Of a stretch of DNA of 64,000 nucleotides, positions 1,176 through 52,165 are shown piece after piece. Position 1 is the stretch's first letter; each line of letters opens with the position of its first letter. The stretch is from NCBI GenBank assembly GCA_024628785.1, contig CP102405.1:62001-126000 (forward strand), given 5' to 3'. Both the position numbers and the translations under genes were made by a program. The stretch comes from Fusobacteria bacterium ZRK30 (GTDB lineage: Bacteria; Fusobacteriota; Fusobacteriia; Fusobacteriales; Fusobacteriaceae). The notes beneath the pieces are model-generated. The model was not told where the DNA came from. It searched no databases and saw nothing but the letters and a program-made list of their open reading frames with translations.

Positions 1176-1210
1176 ATTTTTTCCTTTTAAGTTTACTTCA
1201 CAATAAATAA

Positions 1211-1240
1211 GCAGCGTAACGCTGCATCCAGATAATCGTT
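1211..1240 (+). repeat. Short hairpin repeat, copy 1
   Basis: The hairpin GCAGCG-TAA-CGCTGC is followed by ATCCAGATAA. Compared with the common stem GCAACG/CGTTGC, one base on each side has changed so that pairing is kept. It lies in the gap between the tupB start and the moaA stop. Only the 5' half of the element is recognisable; the right boundary is approximate. Confidence 0.7.
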
Positions 1241-1373
1241 AATCAAAGATTTGGTAAATTTTAGATTATATATTCGACTTGTACAACTTAACTTTAATTA
1301 TAAATTTTCTTTAAATTTTTTCTAAAATTAAAATATATTGTCTATTTTAAAGAAAAAAGAGCTGTTTACTCAA

Positions 1374-6081: not shown

Positions 6082-6738
6082 ATGAAAAGCAATCTAATTA
6101 TAGAAAAATTTATCAATATATATAAATTGAACAACTTGTTTTCTAAAGAAAATATCAATTTATTTAAATTGAAAAAATATTCCAAAGGAGAAAATATAAT
6201 CAACGCCAAAGATGAAGTAAAACACATATATTTCATCGTATCTGGAGGAGTTGATATCCACTCTTTTTTAGCCAGCGGCAGGAGCATCTTCATCAATAAA
6301 TTATCTCCCCCGGAAATATTTGGAGATGTAGAGTATTTAGGAGAAACTACCATGTTGTTTGATGTGGCTGCTAACTCTAATAATACTATTATTATGAGTA
6401 TCTCATTTAAAGCCATTGAAGCGCATTTGAGTAATAATTCCCAGCTATGGAGATTTTTAGGGGTGGCTTCTACCCGAAAATTATTAAAAACAAACAGAGC
6501 TATCCTTCTAAAGGAAGGATTTAATCTGAAAAACATATTAGCCCTTCACTTGGTTAAAAACGATCACCTTATTAATTTCAAATCTTTAAATGAACTATCC
6601 AAAGAATTAAATGTCAGTTATCGTAATCTAACCAGGATAATAAAATTTTTCACAGATTCAGGAATAATAAAAAAAGATCGAAAAAGTATCATTACCTTAG
6701 ATAAGGATGCTATAAAAAGATATTCTAAAGAGATATAA
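6082..6738 (+). CDS. CRP/FNR-family transcriptional regulator, YeiL-like (copy 1)
   Basis: Predicted DNA-binding regulator of 218 residues. The N-terminal cyclic-nucleotide-binding-type barrel (about residues 15-130) contains IYFIVSGGVDIHS and PEIFGDVEYLG; the C-terminal winged helix (about 165-205) contains SLNELSKELNVSYRNLTRII. No FNR-type N-terminal cysteine cluster is present. GGAGG lies 7 bases before the ATG. It diverges from deoA-deoC, so control of deoxynucleoside use is a reasonable inference. It resembles the second regulator at 9692-10375 in size and layout. A hairpin repeat follows the stop within 3 bases. Confidence 0.88.
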   Translation: MKSNLIIEKFINIYKLNNLFSKENINLFKLKKYSKGENIINAKDEVKHIYFIVSGGVDIHSFLASGRSIFINKLSPPEIFGDVEYLGETTMLFDVAANSNNTIIMSISFKAIEAHLSNNSQLWRFLGVASTRKLLKTNRAILLKEGFNLKNILALHLVKNDHLINFKSLNELSKELNVSYRNLTRIIKFFTDSGIIKKDRKSIITLDKDAIKRYSKEI

Positions 6739-6740
6739 AA

Positions 6741-6822
6741 GTAATGTGACACTGCATCTAGACCCTTACTAATTCTGGTATCAGGTTTATATATTAATCC
6801 CTTTTAGACTCCCTTAAAGAAT
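6741..6822 (+). repeat. Short hairpin repeat, copy 2 (degenerate)
   Basis: GTAATG-TGA-CACTGC followed by ATCTAGA begins 3 bases after a stop codon and runs to a terminator at 6823. The stem is weaker than in the best copies, with one mismatch and one G-T pair. Only the 5' box is clearly related to the others; the right end is set by the terminator. Confidence 0.55.
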
Positions 6823-6856
6823 AAAAAACTAGGATTTTTTAAATCCTAGTTTTTTA
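6823..6856. terminator. Bidirectional intrinsic terminator
   Basis: AAAAAACTAGGATTT and AAATCCTAGTTTTTT pair perfectly around a short T loop, with A and T runs on both sides. It serves the regulator gene on the left and the SHOCT gene on the right. Confidence 0.9.
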
Positions 6857-9488: not shown

Positions 9489-9516
9489 AAACAGCTTACC
9501 AAAAAGTAAACTGCTC
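9489..9516 (-). terminator. Riboswitch-controlled terminator
   Basis: On the minus strand CAGTTTAC pairs with GTAAGCTG (one G-T pair, extendable by three weak pairs) around TTTTTG, followed by TTTTTAGTTTTT. Its 5' arm overlaps the 3' arm (9505-9510) of an alternative hairpin that pairs with 9521-9526. It is the expression platform of the guanine riboswitch. Confidence 0.75.
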
Positions 9517-9523
9517 GCAATTT

Positions 9524-9587
9524 ACTCATAGTGGCTAATTTAGGTTAGCCGTAGAAACTTTTGTCCATATCACAAATTTATATGAGT
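9524..9587 (-). ncRNA. Guanine-class purine riboswitch aptamer
   Basis: The minus strand matches the purine riboswitch fold. P1 is ACTCATA/TATGAGT, 7 perfect pairs. P2 is TTTGT/ACAAA with loop GATATGG. J2/3 is AGTTTCTAC. P3 is GGCTAA/TTAGCC with loop CCTAAA. The base just before the 3' P1 strand is C, which by the known specificity rule means guanine (or hypoxanthine) rather than adenine; the T in J2/3 argues against the deoxyguanosine variant. Loop 3 is one base shorter than in the classic xpt example. It leads into the BMP lipoprotein gene. Confidence 0.9.
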
Positions 9588-9691
9588 TGATTTATTTTTT
9601 TATGGTAATATGATAGTATAATAGCATAAATAAAAATAGGTCCTATGTCCTTTTTTACCCATGAAATTAATTTAAAAGAGAGGTGTAGTCG

Positions 9692-15573: not shown

Positions 15574-15615
15574 ATTTTAACTCCTTTTTATTCTCACTTT
15601 ACATCACTTAAAAAA

Positions 15616-15651
15616 GTAATATGACGTTGTATCCAGAGAGGCACAATCTAG
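15616..15651 (+). repeat. Short hairpin repeat, copy 3
   Basis: GTAATA-TGA-CGTTGT followed by ATCCAGAGAGGCACAATCTAG closely matches the first 40 bases of the copies at 31086 and 51971, although the stem here has decayed. It is the only copy with neighbours both on the opposite strand besides copy 1. Confidence 0.7.
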
Positions 15652-15682
15652 TTTATGATATTCTTTTTTCATTCTATAGATT

Positions 15683-17335
15683 TTATCTTTCGCTCTCTTT
15701 TATCTTTATCTTTCCCTTTTCATTTATAAAGTATTCATCTTCTAACCTTATTCCCTCACCCTTATTTAATATCGTGTTTTCTGCACCAGGATAAGCCTTC
15801 TTTAACTCCTCATTTTTCATCTCATAGGAGGTCACTATATAATCCAATTTATTTATCCTGTTGTCTTTCAGCAAAAGGAGATCTCTCCTTTCTGGTCTCT
15901 TATTCAAAAATAATACTTTATTGGGAGTACTCCTATAGTTCATCCACTTCAAATCTAATTTTTCTATCCTCTGAGGTGGTACTAGAAATATTAAGGGGAT
16001 TACCCCTAAAGATATATACCAGTATCTTCTTATTTTTTCCCTTTTAAAGAGGATGAATAACAGTATTATAACATATAAGAAGATATATAATAATAAGGAG
16101 ATTTTAGCATAAAACATCAAAGTTAAAAACGGAATTTTAGAAAATATATCTATTATAAAGATCAAAAATTTATAGGACATATATCCAATTGGGATCAATA
16201 GTTTTTCCAATCCTATAAAGGATAGTAAGAGAGATATAAATAATATCAGTACCGTGACCGACCCCAGTGGGATAACTATTAAATTCGGGATAAAGGAAAA
16301 TAAGGGCAAAACTCTAAAATAATATAAAAATATAGGTATCAAAATAATTTGGATGGAAAAACTCAATATAAGAAAATTAACAACCTTATATTTCATTAAT
16401 TTTTTAGGTAAGATCTCTCCTAAATACCCCTTGACTTTGGGATCTAAAAACAATATTCCTGAAAGGGCCAGATAGGACATTTGGTAGGAGATACTTCTGA
16501 CAGCATAGGGGTTGATAAAATTAGAAACTATAAAAGCCACCATCAATGCTTTTATCATCTCCCTCTCCTCATAAAAAATTTTAGCAGCCAAATATAATAT
16601 CCCCATAATATAGGCCCGCTGAACTGAGGGAGTAAATCCCACTCCATAACAATAAGCTGTAAGGATTACTCCTGCCAGCCCATACCTTATCTGGTAGGGC
16701 AGCCTTTTTAACAAAAATAGTATGGAAACTATTATTATTCCTATATGAAGCCCTGATATTACAAGAATATGTGAAGTTCCTGTATAGTTAAATTTTTTTC
16801 TTATCTCTTCAGATATTCCCTCTTTCCTTCCTAATAGAACTGCCTTGGTAAAATTTTGAAATTCATAAGAAAAATCAGACCCCAGTTTATCTACTCTGTT
16901 GTTTAAAAAATCTCTGATCCTGGTCTCTATCTTTTCCTCTTTTAATATAGACATTTCGACCCTGTTATTTTCTATTTTATTTATTCTTCCTAGAGTTTTA
17001 TAGGATCCCTCCTCTAAAAACTTATCTAAAACAGGGTAATAGCTGACCTTCAAATATTTTTCATCCGCTTTTATTATCTTAGCTCTATCTGAGATCACTT
17101 CTATCTGAAATTCATAGATTTTATCTGCACTCAACTTTTCCATGGTTCTTAAAGTGTAATTTCCATACAAATATATCGTCATCCCCATCAAAACCAATGC
17201 TAAGATCTTATCTTTTCTCTTAAAATAAACTCCCAGGATAAATAAAAGGGAACAAAGCAATGCTTCCCTCCCTCCTAAAAAATTGACTACAGATACAAAT
17301 ATTGCATTTAAGAAAAATATCATATTTATATCCAT
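15683..17335 (-). CDS. comEC: ComEC/Rec2-type DNA uptake channel, lacking the metallo-beta-lactamase domain
   Basis: Inner-membrane channel for single-stranded DNA during natural transformation. It is 550 residues. An N-terminal pair of membrane segments precedes a small soluble region (about residues 65-150); the Competence domain starts near 170 with GTSHILVISGLHIGI and continues through about eight membrane segments (SPSVQRAYIMG-like motif near 235). The C-terminus is only about 100 soluble residues after the last membrane segment, too short for the usual beta-lactamase-like domain, and shows no HxHxDH motif. GGGGGAG lies 5 bases before the ATG. It follows dgt by 17 bases. Confidence 0.88.
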   Translation of the reverse strand: MDINMIFFLNAIFVSVVNFLGGREALLCSLLFILGVYFKRKDKILALVLMGMTIYLYGNYTLRTMEKLSADKIYEFQIEVISDRAKIIKADEKYLKVSYYPVLDKFLEEGSYKTLGRINKIENNRVEMSILKEEKIETRIRDFLNNRVDKLGSDFSYEFQNFTKAVLLGRKEGISEEIRKKFNYTGTSHILVISGLHIGIIIVSILFLLKRLPYQIRYGLAGVILTAYCYGVGFTPSVQRAYIMGILYLAAKIFYEEREMIKALMVAFIVSNFINPYAVRSISYQMSYLALSGILFLDPKVKGYLGEILPKKLMKYKVVNFLILSFSIQIILIPIFLYYFRVLPLFSFIPNLIVIPLGSVTVLILFISLLLSFIGLEKLLIPIGYMSYKFLIFIIDIFSKIPFLTLMFYAKISLLLYIFLYVIILLFILFKREKIRRYWYISLGVIPLIFLVPPQRIEKLDLKWMNYRSTPNKVLFLNKRPERRDLLLLKDNRINKLDYIVTSYEMKNEELKKAYPGAENTILNKGEGIRLEDEYFINEKGKIKIKESER

Positions 17336-30350: not shown

Positions 30351-30385
30351 TAACTATAACAATATATAGGGAGTTGATATCTATC

Positions 30386-31081
30386 ATGACTTTTAATAAA
30401 TTTATAAAAAATAAAAGAATAGAATTAAATCTAAGTCAAAATAAATTTGCTAAATCCATTGGGATAACTCAATCTTATTTTAATAATATAGAAAGAGGTG
30501 AATTAAAAAATCCGCCCAGTGAGGACGTTTTAGAAAAAATTTCCATAGGTCTTATGTTAAATGAGGAGGAGATTGAATATCTAAAATTTTTAGCTGCTTT
30601 TGAAAGGACTCCTCAGCTCATCAAGGATGAATTGGATAGAAAAGATAAGGAGATCAGCTACCTCAGGGGAAACTCATCTATCTCTGAAAATAACTCCATC
30701 TCTATAGATGACCAGATTCCGGTCTTTGAAAGGATCAGTGCAGGCATCGGGGTTTTAGGAGATCAGGAAGTTACAGAATATATTACCCTCCCTGGGATAA
30801 GAAATCACGGTAATATTTTTGCTGTCAATGTATGGGGAGATTCTATGGAGCCTACTATTAAAGACGGTTCTATAATTATCGCTAAAAAAGAAGTTGAGGT
30901 AAGAAATGGAGATATCGGAGCTTTTTTCATAAATGATGAAGCCTTTGTAAAAAGACTAAAAGTTACAGAATCATATGTAGCTCTTATCAGTGATAATCCC
31001 AACTATCCGCCTATTTTTATAGGCCCTGGAGAAGATCTCAAAGTTGTAGGAAAGGTAGTAAAAGTTTTAAGTGATATATAA
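30386..31081 (+). CDS. LexA/CI-like repressor (XRE helix-turn-helix plus S24 peptidase domain)
   Basis: DNA-binding repressor of 231 residues. The N-terminal Cro/CI helix-turn-helix is at about residues 5-65 (LSQNKFAKSIGITQSYFNNI). The C-terminal S24 domain (about 110-231) contains the self-cleavage serine in WGDSMEPTIKDGS and the general-base lysine in AFVKRLKV. An Ala-Gly pair in RISAGIGVLG sits where LexA and CI are cut, so RecA-stimulated autocleavage is plausible. No prophage genes surround it. The ATG at 30386 is chosen over an upstream TTG that abuts GGGAG. It is divergent from the glycosyltransferase-diguanylate cyclase pair. Confidence 0.9.
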   Translation: MTFNKFIKNKRIELNLSQNKFAKSIGITQSYFNNIERGELKNPPSEDVLEKISIGLMLNEEEIEYLKFLAAFERTPQLIKDELDRKDKEISYLRGNSSISENNSISIDDQIPVFERISAGIGVLGDQEVTEYITLPGIRNHGNIFAVNVWGDSMEPTIKDGSIIIAKKEVEVRNGDIGAFFINDEAFVKRLKVTESYVALISDNPNYPPIFIGPGEDLKVVGKVVKVLSDI

Positions 31082-31085
31082 AAGA

Positions 31086-31227
31086 GCAACGTGACGTTGC
31101 ATCCAGATAGGCACAACCTAGGGTTTTATAATTTTTACCTCAAGATTCTTAGATTATATAATGACCTCTAAAATCTTAGTGATACCACTTACTGGTAGAT
31201 ATTTTAGTATAATTTCCTGGATAATAA
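31086..31227 (+). repeat. Hairpin repeat, copy 4 (full length, about 142 bases)
   Basis: The element opens with the perfect hairpin GCAACG-TGA-CGTTGC and ATCCAGATAGGCACAACC, contains a second small hairpin TACCA-CTTAC-TGGTA (about 31182-31196), and ends with TATAATTTCCTGGATAATAA. It begins 4 bases after a stop codon and runs into a terminator. Confidence 0.8.
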
Positions 31228-31261
31228 AAATGGAAGCAGAATTTCTGCTTCCATTTTTTTA
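31226..31261. terminator. Bidirectional intrinsic terminator
   Basis: AAAATGGAAGCAGAA and TTCTGCTTCCATTTT pair almost perfectly, with A and T runs outside. It closes both the repressor gene and the convergent tcyP gene. Confidence 0.92.
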
Positions 31262-42215: not shown

Positions 42216-42785
42216 ATGAAAGATAAAAAAAGTTTAATTATCTTAGGAGGATCCATCGCCTTCCTTTTGATAAGTGGTATTTTTTTCTATAAATACGTAA
42301 CTATGGGAGACCAGATCCCCATAAAAAAAATTACTAACCACAAAAATACACAGGCGATCACCAATATTAAGATAGTAAAAATTTATACTCCCAATGATTC
42401 TTTAGACAGCCTGGTTTCATCGGATATTGAGATTATTAAGGAGGATTTTGCTTCTGAGGTAAGATCTATTTTCAATGCAATCCATGAACAGAGTAATTAT
42501 CAGATCAAAGATGAAGAGGGAAACTACTATCCATTTATGGATCCCAATATAGAACTATTAAACTCCTACCTTGTAGGCGACAAACTATACCTTAACCTCA
42601 GCTCTAATATCACCGATAATATCCGAACCAAGGAACAAGAACTACTGATCATCTACTCTTTGGTCAACACCTACACAAGTTTAGAGGGGATCAACAGGGT
42701 AAAAATCATTATCGACGACGTAGAAGTAAAAAAATTAAAATGGTATAATCTCAGAACTTTTTACACGCAAAATTTAGATATCTAG
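42216..42785 (+). CDS. GerMN-domain protein
   Basis: A 189-residue membrane-anchored protein: one N-terminal transmembrane segment (about residues 7-28) and a GerMN domain (about 50-170) with ASEVRSIFNAIHEQS, YLNLSSNITDN and ELLIIYSLVNTYTS. GerMN occurs in spore germination protein GerM but also in non-sporulating bacteria, usually near cell-wall enzymes; here the amidase gene lies 20 bases upstream. It is probably a periplasm-facing cell-envelope protein. AAGGAG lies 6 bases before the ATG. The hairpin repeat begins after its stop. Confidence 0.85.
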   Translation: MKDKKSLIILGGSIAFLLISGIFFYKYVTMGDQIPIKKITNHKNTQAITNIKIVKIYTPNDSLDSLVSSDIEIIKEDFASEVRSIFNAIHEQSNYQIKDEEGNYYPFMDPNIELLNSYLVGDKLYLNLSSNITDNIRTKEQELLIIYSLVNTYTSLEGINRVKIIIDDVEVKKLKWYNLRTFYTQNLDI

Positions 42786-42789
42786 AAAA

Positions 42790-42812
42790 ATAATGTAATG
42801 TTGGATCCGATT
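42790..42812 (+). repeat. Short hairpin repeat, copy 5 (degenerate)
   Basis: ATAATGTAATGTTGG followed by ATCCGATTAAG aligns with the start of the better copies, and it begins 5 bases after a stop codon. The stem is mostly lost. Only its placement and about 15 aligned bases support the call. Confidence 0.45.
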
Positions 42813-42893
42813 AAGTTAAACTCTAAATTTTTTATATACTTTAATCTATTTAATGATTTTTTAGACAATTAATAAAGTATAACGGAGGTTTTT

Positions 42894-43468: not shown

Positions 43469-45607
43469 ATGAATAAAAACGATGAAAAAAAAGTTTTAGA
43501 ACTTTTCAAAAAAGGAAAGGGAAAAACTTTAAGTGAGATCACATCTTATATGGATTGGTCTCCTAAATTAAAAAAACAAAATAGAGATTTTTTAGATAAA
43601 TTAGTTGAATCAGGAGATCTTATCTTAAGTAAAAGGGGCAAGTATAACACTCCTAAAAATTTAGGGTATATTACCGGTAACCTCGAGGTAATAAAGGACA
43701 GATTTGCATTTGTTGATACGGAAGATTTTGGTGTATTTATCCCTAAATCTAAATTCAACGGTGCATTTAATGGAGATCTTGTTATGGTGCAGCTTTCCAA
43801 CGAAACTACCGGAGCTAAAAAAGAGGGAGAAGTAGTAAAGATTTTAAAAAGGGAAAAAAACACCATCATCGGTATCTATCAGGCCAATGAAAGGTTTGGT
43901 TTTGTAGTTCCTACCCATTCATTTGGGAACGATATATTTGTCCCCAAAAGATTTAATGGAGGAGCCCACAATGGTGAACTGGTGGTCTGTGAGATCATAT
44001 CTTGGGGAGAGAAGGATAAAAAACCCGAGGGTAAGGTTATAGAAAGAATCGGGGATCCCTATGATACCAATAATATGATTGAAGCTCTTATCATCAGGGA
44101 GGGACTGTCTATGGACTTTTCTCCTAAACTGATTAAAAAGGCAAAGGAATTAAGCGATCAGCTCTCAGAAGAGGAGATTGCAAAAAGGCGTGACCTGAGA
44201 GATCTTCCAATCATTACCATCGATGGAGATGATGCCAAGGATCTAGATGACGCTGTCTATGTAGAAAAATTAGAGAATGGAAATTTTAAACTTATAGTAT
44301 GTATCGCCGATGTTTCTTATTATGTCCCATTTGGAAGTGCTCTGGATATGGAGGCCCGTAAAAGAGGTAACTCGGTATATCTGGTAGACAGAGTGATACC
44401 TATGTTCCCTAGGGAGATCTCAAATGGACTGTGTTCATTGAATCCCCATGAGAATAAATTTGTATTTACATGTGAGATGGAGATCGATAACAAAGGGCAG
44501 GTAATAAATCACGAAACTTATAAAGCTGTAATTTCTACCGCTCATAGGATGACCTATGGGGGAGTTAACAAGATCTTAGCTGGAGATAAAACTTATACAG
44601 AGGAATATAAAGATATAAATAAGATGGTCTTTGAGATGTTAGAGCTGTCTCATATCCTAAGAGGATTAAAATACTCCAGAGGAAGTATTGATTTTGATAT
44701 CCCAGAAGTAAGAGCTGTCTTGGGAGAGGATAAAAAAGTAGAATACCTTAAAGTTATTGAGAGAGGGGAATCTGAAAGAATTATAGAGGATTTCATGATT
44801 GCGGCCAATGAAACTGTTGCTGAAAAGATATTTTGGATGGAACTGCCATTCCTATATAGAACCCATGAAAAACCTGATCCGGACAGAATCACAGCATTAA
44901 ACGATTCCATTAAAAAGTTTGGATATAATCTTCACGGACATGAGGAGTTACATCCTGGAAAGTTCCAAAAAATAATAGAGCAGTCTAAAGAGGACGGTAA
45001 CAGCCAGATCATCCATAAACTTATCCTGATGAGTTTAAAACAAGCCAGATACACAGTAGATAATATCGGACATTTCGGATTATCTTCAAATTATTATGCA
45101 CATTTCACTTCTCCAATCAGAAGATATGCCGACCTTATGGTTCACAGAGTTATCAATGAAACTCTGACAGGCTATCCAAGTAAAAAAACTATAAAGATGT
45201 TTAAAGATGAGATGTCTGCCATTGGATCACATATCTCAAAAACAGAGAGAACAGCTATGAAATTAGAATCTGAAAGTGTAAAGATAAAAATAGTAGAATA
45301 TATGCTAGATAAAATAGGTGAGGAATATAAGAGCAGGATTATCGGGTTTAATAAAACCAAGATATTCTTTGAGACAGAGGAACATGTAGAGTGTTTCTTT
45401 GACGGAGTTAATTCTCCTAACTACTTCACCTTTGATGAAGTAAACTATACTATGACAAATGAAGATACAGGTGAGATCTTTAAATTAGGAGATAGTGTAG
45501 AAGTATCTATCGTTAGAGCTGACCTCAGTGAACTAGAAGTAGAAGTAGTTCCGGCACAATACTTAGATCAATACAGGGGACCGAGACAATACAGAAAAAA
45601 ATATTAA
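43469..45607 (+). CDS. rnr: Ribonuclease R
   Basis: Processive 3'-to-5' exoribonuclease that degrades structured RNA. The 712 residues are typical. Order: a winged-helix-like N-terminus (about 1-60), two cold-shock domains (about 65-220, with DRFAFVDTEDFGVFIPKSKF and NERFGFVVPTHSFGNDIFVP), the RNB catalytic domain (about 245-570) with TIDGDDAKDLDDAVYVE carrying the metal-binding aspartates, and a C-terminal S1 domain (about 620-700). The tail is short and basic. GGGAG precedes the ATG. It follows yqeK in one transcript; a repeat and terminator follow. Confidence 0.96.
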   Translation: MNKNDEKKVLELFKKGKGKTLSEITSYMDWSPKLKKQNRDFLDKLVESGDLILSKRGKYNTPKNLGYITGNLEVIKDRFAFVDTEDFGVFIPKSKFNGAFNGDLVMVQLSNETTGAKKEGEVVKILKREKNTIIGIYQANERFGFVVPTHSFGNDIFVPKRFNGGAHNGELVVCEIISWGEKDKKPEGKVIERIGDPYDTNNMIEALIIREGLSMDFSPKLIKKAKELSDQLSEEEIAKRRDLRDLPIITIDGDDAKDLDDAVYVEKLENGNFKLIVCIADVSYYVPFGSALDMEARKRGNSVYLVDRVIPMFPREISNGLCSLNPHENKFVFTCEMEIDNKGQVINHETYKAVISTAHRMTYGGVNKILAGDKTYTEEYKDINKMVFEMLELSHILRGLKYSRGSIDFDIPEVRAVLGEDKKVEYLKVIERGESERIIEDFMIAANETVAEKIFWMELPFLYRTHEKPDPDRITALNDSIKKFGYNLHGHEELHPGKFQKIIEQSKEDGNSQIIHKLILMSLKQARYTVDNIGHFGLSSNYYAHFTSPIRRYADLMVHRVINETLTGYPSKKTIKMFKDEMSAIGSHISKTERTAMKLESESVKIKIVEYMLDKIGEEYKSRIIGFNKTKIFFETEEHVECFFDGVNSPNYFTFDEVNYTMTNEDTGEIFKLGDSVEVSIVRADLSELEVEVVPAQYLDQYRGPRQYRKKY

Positions 45608-45611
45608 AGAG

Positions 45612-45673
45612 GCAATGTGACGTTGCAGACAGACATATTCTAGATTTTTATAAAACTTATATTTCCTAGATAA
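45612..45673 (+). repeat. Hairpin repeat, copy 6 (short form, about 62 bases)
   Basis: GCAATG-TGA-CGTTGC, with a T-G pair replacing C-G, is followed by AGACAGACATATTCTAG and ends in TATATTTCCTAGATAA. It keeps both the 5' and 3' ends of the full element but lacks its middle, so it looks like an internal deletion. It starts 5 bases after the rnr stop and abuts a terminator. Confidence 0.75.
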
Positions 45674-45707
45674 AAAAAAGGATTCCATGAGGAATCCTCT
45701 TTTTTTA
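45673..45707. terminator. Bidirectional intrinsic terminator
   Basis: AAAAAAAGGATTCC pairs with GGAATCCTCTTTTTTT around ATGA. It ends rnr on the + strand and overlaps the yebC stop codon on the minus strand. Confidence 0.9.
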
Positions 45708-51957: not shown

Positions 51958-51970
51958 CGCCCATTAAAAA

Positions 51971-52121
51971 GCAACGTGACGTTGCACCCAGACAAGCACA
52001 ATTCAGGTTTTTATATTTTTTTTATTTAGTCCATAAATTTTATCTCAAAATCCTATGTTTATGTTGTAAAGTCATAGCATTTTAGTGATGCCCCTTGCGG
52101 GTATAATTTCCTAGATAATAA
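51971..52121 (+). repeat. Hairpin repeat, copy 7 (full length, about 151 bases)
   Basis: Begins GCAACG-TGA-CGTTGC then ACCCAGACAAGCACAATTCAG, carries a second hairpin TGCCC-CTTGC-GGGTA (about 52089-52103), and ends TATAATTTCCTAGATAATAA. Relative to copy 4 the second stem has changed bases on both sides. It begins 13 bases after the MATE stop and runs into a terminator. Confidence 0.8.
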
Positions 52122-52165
52122 GCAAAAGGAGGAGAATTCATTGAATTCTCCTCCTTTTGCTTATT
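52117..52165. terminator. Long perfect bidirectional terminator
   Basis: AATAAGCAAAAGGAGGAGAA and its complement pair over about 23 positions around a 3-base loop. The minus-strand gene stop codon lies inside the right arm. It overlaps the end of repeat copy 7. Confidence 0.92.

Follow-up and report, generated by a model that had tools for sequence, protein, structure and literature searches.

A small modular palindromic repeat, probably mobile, sited between stop codons and terminators in Fusobacteria bacterium ZRK30 and with a head found in other phyla

Within 64,000 nucleotides of the genome of Fusobacteria bacterium ZRK30 (contig CP102405.1, positions 62,001 to 126,000; hereafter the window), the same short hairpin recurs at scattered sites, which raises the question of what kind of element it belongs to and how it came to be repeated. 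A sequence-only reading had listed seven sites (1211, 6741, 15616, 31086, 42790, 45612 and 51971) sharing a hairpin of the form GCAACG-TGA-CGTTGC and an ATCCAGA-like box. Scanning of the window with an unfiltered covariance model, built from 26 genome copies over 101 positions and given only the six head pairs as structure, returned these seven as the top matches, the next having an E value of 1.2. E values ranged from 2e-14 to 5e-5 for the matches at 51963, 31078, 45604, 1203, 15608 and 6733, and reached only 0.025 at 42782. The training set included 31086, 45612 and 51971, which therefore score highly by construction; 1203, 6733, 15608 and 42782 were outside it. Hairpin and box are intact at 31086, the same hairpin is followed by ACCCAGA at 51971, and one to three changes are found in hairpin and box at 1211 and 45612. 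Searched at up to three mismatches, GCAACGTGACGTTGC matched the window 8 times, strands being counted separately, where chance predicts 0.10. The window contains six firm copies and one decayed copy (42790) of a small non-coding, probably mobile element (Table 1). The interval first proposed for copy 4, 31086-31227, agrees with the hairpin start and tail end of the element, and copies 2, 3 and 5 are indeed decayed, copy 5 strongly so (E 5.3e-5, 3.7e-5 and 0.025).

Table 1. Copies of the element and adjoining host features, in window coordinates
Feature	Position	Strand	Evidence or remark
Copy 1, stem with paired changes GCAGCG/CGCTGC	1203..1304	+	covariance model E 1.5e-6
Copy 2, decayed; 2 nt past stop of gene 6082-6738	6733..6828	+	covariance model E 5.3e-5
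Copy 3, decayed	15608..15696	+	covariance model E 3.7e-5
Host gene, HTH + Peptidase_S24 (repressor-like); stop codon at left edge of copy 4	30374..31081	+	
Copy 4, full element, ~142 nt from hairpin to tail	31078..31231	+	covariance model E 5.6e-13
Copy 4 head palindrome GCAACG-TGA-CGTTGC	31086..31100	+	sequence; - strand reading terminator-like (hairpin + T-rich tail)
Copy 4 conserved box ATCCAGATAGGCACAACCTA 3' of hairpin	31101..31120	+	alignment of copies
Copy 4 optional inner module ACCTCAAGATTCT...TTAGTGATACCACTTACTGGTA	31137..31197	+	alignment; most copies without module
Copy 4 tail TATAATTTCCTGGATAATAA	31208..31227	+	sequence, alignment of copies
Host terminator hairpin adjoining copy 4 tail	31226..31258	+	scored terminator; G002 keeps hairpin beside much shorter version
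Copy 5, strongly decayed, weak	42782..42875	+	covariance model E 0.025
Copy 6, short form	45604..45680	+	covariance model E 5e-8
Copy 7, full element, one inner module	51963..52125	+	covariance model E 2.1e-14; same site in G002 and G007 without element
Copy 7 head palindrome; terminator-like when read on - strand	51971..51985	+	
Host inverted repeat adjoining copy 7 tail, 24-nt arms, 100% complementary	52117..52165	.	

Analysis of the whole genome (G000, 3.6 Mb) with the covariance model identified 105 copies with an E value of 0.01 or less, and 128 when the limit was relaxed to 1, far above the ten or so that the sequence-only reading had set as the least for a family. At up to three mismatches, GCAACGTGACGTTGC produced 106 forward and 104 reverse matches, against 4 and 7 for the reversed pattern; as a palindrome matches both strands, this corresponds to roughly a hundred sites. 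With copy 4 as the query, BLAST found 54 matches. All seven copies in the window face the + strand, as had been remarked, though genome-wide the model matches lie on both strands in numbers, so that the shared orientation is a local chance. The aligned copies read TAAAAAA-GCAACGTGACGTTGC-ATCCAGACAAGCACAATTCAGGTTTTTATAAT-(variable)-TATAATTTCCTAGATAATAAAAAA: a head, TAAAAAA-GCAACG-TGA-CGTTGC-ATCCAGA, a variable middle of 0-3 inner hairpin modules, and the tail TATAATTTCCTAGATAATAAAAAA. The length classes that had been suggested were found, with peaks at ~85 and ~145 nt and short forms of 42-70 nt; the 145 nt class contains the inner module TATCTCAAAATTCTATGTTTACAGAGTAAACTAATAGTATTTTGGTGATGCCCCTTGCGGGTA. 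This is a modular A-B(n)-C build, as in the BOX elements considered below.

Paired change in the stem had been taken as a sign of selection on the folded form. Across 113 copies from the genome, 90.2% of cells in the six stem pairs were paired, and both partners had changed in 25 cells, where shuffles gave 6.3 ± 2.3 (0/500 as high); sliding of the stem partner abolished the covariation signal. Pairing is thus kept through variation, and the paired change stands, while selection on a folded RNA is not established. One-sided changes compatible with the + strand (GT/TG) were about as common as those compatible with the - strand (AC/CA), and the data therefore favour a kept palindrome, in DNA or RNA, over an RNA of one strand; they do not tell an RNA from a DNA palindrome. 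A consistent global RNA fold was rejected: the whole-element fold was no better than shuffles for copy 7 (z -0.04) and modestly better for copy 4 (z -2.34). A terminal inverted repeat formed by ATCCAG/CTRGAT was rejected as well, with no covariation (390/606 cells paired against a shuffle mean of 383; 88/2000 shuffles as high).

In the host, the element occupies the gap between a stop codon and the intrinsic terminator. Copy 4 sits in this manner between the stop codon of gene 30374-31081 and the adjoining terminator; copy 6 starts 4 nt past the stop of gene 43469-45607, which encodes an RNB-domain exoribonuclease, and copy 1 is located upstream of the - strand gene 480-1175. A same-strand gene lies on the left of 57 of the 109 copies outside ORFs, and for 41 of these 57 the left end falls in the range -9 to +8 nt around that gene's stop codon; often, therefore, the A-run's TAA is itself the stop codon. 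In 51/109 copies, against 13% of controls, a stem of at least 7 pairs was present no more than 45 nt from the right end. Of the 8 nt preceding the head, at least 5 are A in 91% of copies, and the junction TAAAAAA|GCAACG is invariant. Read on the - strand, the head is a hairpin with a T-rich tail (a T-run after GCAACGTCACGTTGC) and was scored terminator-like. In relatives, copies were found directly beside older heads (L061, L066) and beside the tail of another copy (L071, L161, L182).

The search in related Fusobacteriota recovered the element in five of seven congeners; G006 (98% complete) and G001 (76% complete) were without it. G006 gave zero matches with the same covariance model and zero 19-mers with up to two mismatches, and the matches in the window's genome are therefore not an artefact of composition. 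Orthologous sites were compared where flanks were 81-97% identical. The element at site 51971 is missing in G002 and G007, and that at 45612 in G002. Site 31086 holds ~142 nt in the window's genome, ~80 nt without the inner module in G007, and a hairpin-sized ~30 nt of head only in G002; at genome position 146990 a long form in the window's genome corresponds to a short form in G007. Older copies are common to the congeners, and the hairpin of the G007 ortholog of copy 3 is less decayed (GCAACGTGACGCTGC). The early suggestion that the family is mobile and REP- or MITE-like, or else consists of RNA motifs, is supported by the copy number, the pairing kept in varying stems, the length classes, the presence in related Fusobacteriota, these empty or different sister-species sites and the lack of an Rfam match.

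The head of the element also occurs beyond the genus. Among named assemblies, TAAAAAGCAACGTGACGTTGCATCC is present in those of Propionigenium maris, with many copies, in Selenomonadaceae/Selenomonadales MAGs, and in a Clostridia and a Fusobacteriaceae MAG. The exact 19-mer head GCAACGTGACGTTGCATCC has many copies in those genomes, with 0 for the reversed-pattern control, and in the class of G100 (Negativicutes) 38 of 380 genomes are carriers, with 1-107 exact copies each; these stand together in one run of the listing and belong to a single clade of ~60 genomes. The Clostridia MAG G101 holds 45 heads with up to two mismatches; at L108, two copies 196 nt apart stand in tandem with a nearly identical 60-nt flank. 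The consensus sequences of Fusobacteriota and of G302 agree over ~25 nt (GCAACGTGACGTTGCATCCAGATAG) and then diverge. The second conserved part in G302 is a CGCG...CGCG block pair, which is invariant and so offers no covariation support. Because the Fusobacteriota and Negativicutes elements share only their first ~25 nt, common descent of the whole unit, as judged from sequence, is not proven.

In viral contigs the head was found in 33 stretches, with little more than the head present. It is read in frame in many of their ORFs, as QRDVAS or NVTLHP, often near the C-terminus, and an ORF of the window's own genome ends in KKQRDVASS. On L131, L135, L146, L130 and L148, all viral contigs, phage-like ORFs read through the head as QRDVAS, either internally or at their end; by eye, those of L135 and L146 look like terminase large subunits and that of L131 like a serine recombinase. 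In named phage and plasmid records, matches to the head were only short or imperfect. The viral copies may have another history, because they have no direct repeats (0/37) and carry little more than the head.

Direct repeats are most evident in the Negativicutes carriers, where the stretch preceding the head is found again past the element's far end, with identities of 24/24 nt (L233), 16/16 (L237), 14/14 (L238), 58/59 (L235) and 20/21 (L166). In G302, 41 of 82 copies had a repeat score of at least 10, against 1.1% of random positions, and direct repeats were present at 20/44 other loci, mainly from Negativicutes, against 2.7%. Repeat lengths in G302 were 15-66 nt, with a mean of 37, tandem arrays over 70 nt being excluded; some of the repeats lie within tandem arrays. 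The left repeat ends exactly at the head, the base at -1 being G in 68 of the 82 copies. In dozens of G302 copies the boundary at the head is exact to the nucleotide, while the right end is ragged, with no fixed motif found at that boundary. A second G302 subfamily (L280, L282, L293, L305) is without direct repeats and has CTTTTCTTTTTG as left context and a CCCGCTTTTAAAGCGGGTCTTT hairpin on the right. At L160, L233, L240 and L246, elements lie near gene starts: the gene's first codons are duplicated left of the head, and the gene restarts right of the element with its own start codon, the differences being mostly silent by eye.

The target-site duplications that the sequence-only reading had proposed to look for have a possible counterpart in the long direct repeats of other hosts; long ones were seen in only 2 of 31 copies in the window's genus. 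There, only A-runs flank the copies left and right, an ambiguous sign given that the tail has AATAAAAAA of its own. In P. maris, 6/28 copies had repeats, among them tandem copies (L161, L182) that are not target duplications. These long repeats, the cross-phylum head and the insertion at terminators were not visible to the sequence-only reading.

A transposase with matching ends, also suggested at the outset, was not found. No parent IS of this kind was seen at six neighbouring-copy loci of the window's genome or at the larger G007 site. That site, orthologous to copy 4, is 1.4 kb larger and has an IS3-family-like insert in the host terminator (L214 17741-19053). An autonomous copy was rejected at these loci, since pairs of neighbouring copies enclose ordinary genes and the larger G007 site is the IS3-like insert. 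Y1_Tnp (PF01797) was absent from the window's genome, G002, G007, the Selenomonadaceae and Clostridia carriers G100-G104 and all 12 high-copy genomes; among carriers it occurred only in P. maris (two), with a broken copy in the non-carrier G006. RVT_1 was absent from 10 of the 12 high-copy genomes and from G103, G104, G004 and G005. Carrier MAGs are incomplete, so these absences are only indicative. The reverse transcriptases that carriers do have appear, as read from their sequences, to be DRT-, DGR- or retron-like and of no shared lineage. Those at L212 ~1099-2652 (contig C2 of the window's genome, ~1458 kb), L209 and L207 read as defence-type, and in G007 and P. maris the reverse transcriptase adjoins a small membrane protein gene. 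Across the Y1_Tnp and RVT_1 searches and the neighbouring-copy loci, no known enzyme was tied to the spread of the element.

Comparison with known systems places the element near several families and inside none. MITEs are small, non-coding and numerous, with terminal inverted repeats and short target duplications of fixed length. The element is similarly small, AT-rich here, non-coding and numerous, with direct repeats in young copies, but it lacks a terminal inverted repeat, and its duplications are long and variable (in G302) and none is clear in the window's genus. REPs of the GTAG type have a GTAG/GGAG hairpin foot and a RAYT (Y1) transposase. Hairpin size, copy number and extragenic bias are alike; the foot here, however, is ATCC (GGAT on the other strand) instead of GTAG/GGAG, and most carriers are without a Y1 transposase. 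BOX elements of Streptococcus pneumoniae have the arrangement boxA-boxB(n)-boxC (PMC3049150), and the likeness to them lies in a head and a tail that enclose anything from 0 to several inner hairpin modules, in high copy number, in intergenic position and in a presumed parasitic nature. Unlike BOX, the element has a hairpin at its very head, stop codon/terminator siting, a cross-phylum head and no IS found with matching ends; no sequence resemblance was noticed in a comparison by description. SPRITE, a pneumococcal repeat resembling a Rho-independent terminator, has an 18 bp stem (PMC3049150); the element is likewise terminator-like, but with a 6-7 bp stem and, in many copies, antisense to the neighbouring gene.

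CGTC-type REPs have a CGTC tag, an 8-9 bp stem, a 4-5 nt loop and usually a CCA tail, and their survey names five phyla, without Fusobacteriota or Firmicutes (PMC3733652). With these and the Rickettsia palindromic elements (PMC3733652, PMC10969869) the element shares a short palindrome with a short unpaired tail (here ATCCA), presence in several phyla, in-frame insertion into genes, found here as QRDVAS/NVTLHP in phage-like ORFs and in an ORF of the window's genome, and no known dedicated transposase. Compared by description, it differs from CGTC REPs in having an A-run or G in place of the left CGTC tag, a stem of 6-7 bp, a loop of 1-3 nt and long direct repeats. Integron attC core sites and group II intron ends gave no fit by eye on sequence. 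No Rfam family matched the element above its gathering score, in line with the initial view that it is not a described family; a purine riboswitch lies elsewhere in the window (9509-9605, - strand, 62.5 bits, above the gathering score). Neither the palindrome nor QRDVAS was found in the open-access papers searched, although a subscription journal may carry an earlier description, and nothing on the element appeared in open-access work on Fusobacteria repeats, Lentisphaerae repeats or long target duplications.

Taken together, we consider the element to be probably a non-autonomous mobile palindrome of the REP/RPE/BOX kind, moved by an as yet unnamed activity. The family itself, its copy number, structure and siting, the differences in presence and length between genomes, and the direct repeats are observed; movement in trans, a break-and-copy step and any effect on transcription are what we infer. 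The near-invariant palindromic head would be the fixed end of the mobile unit, the remainder being variable and modular, and a trans-acting activity would insert the unit so that its head abuts the target. In Negativicutes carriers, insertion would duplicate ~15-66 nt of target, which suggests either a pair of breaks set far apart and at varying distances or a strand switch by which the target is copied again. Within the window's genus, units would settle in the A-run between stop codon and intrinsic terminator, where they would do least harm. Since the head on the other strand is again a hairpin and T-run, one copy would make a landing site like that entered. Thereafter, copies would acquire or shed inner hairpin modules, and decay. 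Tentatively, this may be an undescribed mode of transposition, in which a one-ended palindrome of ~20 nt, without Y1 transposase or reverse transcriptase, duplicates 15-66 nt and has the same recognition sequence in Fusobacteriota, Negativicutes, Clostridia and phages. If so, the identity of that sequence across these taxa means that a widely shared enzyme or host repair route must act.

Several other explanations overlap with this one, and the probabilities we attach to the set do not add up to one. Long duplications of variable length, with one end fixed and the other ragged, are the pattern of eukaryotic target-primed elements, and RNA-templated (SINE-like) retroposition would produce it if a - strand transcript ended in the hairpin and a U-tail, the 3' end of a target A-run primed on that tail, and the RNA were copied before a second break. 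The invariant TAAAAAA|GCAACG junction and the terminator-like shape of the - strand head agree with such a route; it is nonetheless unlikely, given the scarcity of RVT_1 among carriers and reverse transcriptases that appear to share no lineage, and an A-run primer is not general, because G precedes the head in most G302 copies. Long duplications of variable length and one ragged end could equally arise with no dedicated enzyme, by replication-coupled template switching at hairpins that copies a donor element and re-copies the target. The failure to find a shared enzyme and the tandem units at L158, L311 and L313 fit this, but random switching leaves unexplained a head boundary fixed to the base in dozens of copies, as well as the same 19-mer in distant phyla, and we regard it as improbable.

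Retention of the exact 19-mer across phyla, the position at stop codons and the paired stem change would also be expected of an immobile palindrome kept by the host for protein binding or RNA processing (chromosome organisation, termination or mRNA 3' ends), the post-stop position reflecting its function. This is quite improbable, because orthologous sites differ in whether they hold the element and in its length (30-142 nt) and because the distribution is patchy (0 in G006, 38/380 in Negativicutes); direct repeats, many decayed copies, tandem units and in-frame occurrences in phage-like genes also speak against it. One protein-binding palindrome may nevertheless have come into use separately in all these hosts. 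A REP-like single-stranded DNA transposition, with a RAYT/IS200-IS605 (Y1, HUH) transposase or a diverged Y1 recognising the hairpin, would account for a ~20 nt hairpin with a constant flanking box at high copy number, and for REP-like extragenic bias and tandem groups. It is very unlikely, with Y1_Tnp absent from most carriers and found broken in the element-free G006; to our knowledge, transposition of the REP kind is not expected to yield duplications of 15-66 nt.

Apart from RAYT-driven REPs, how the common short palindromic repeats of bacteria spread is an open question. The family described here offers a handle on it, through young copies with exact long repeats in G302 and its relatives and through a head that is exact across phyla, and the carriers form a clean contrast with their non-carrier congener G006. 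In genome annotation, the element accounts for predicted proteins that end in QRDVAS and, in the window's genome, for some hundred 3' ends.
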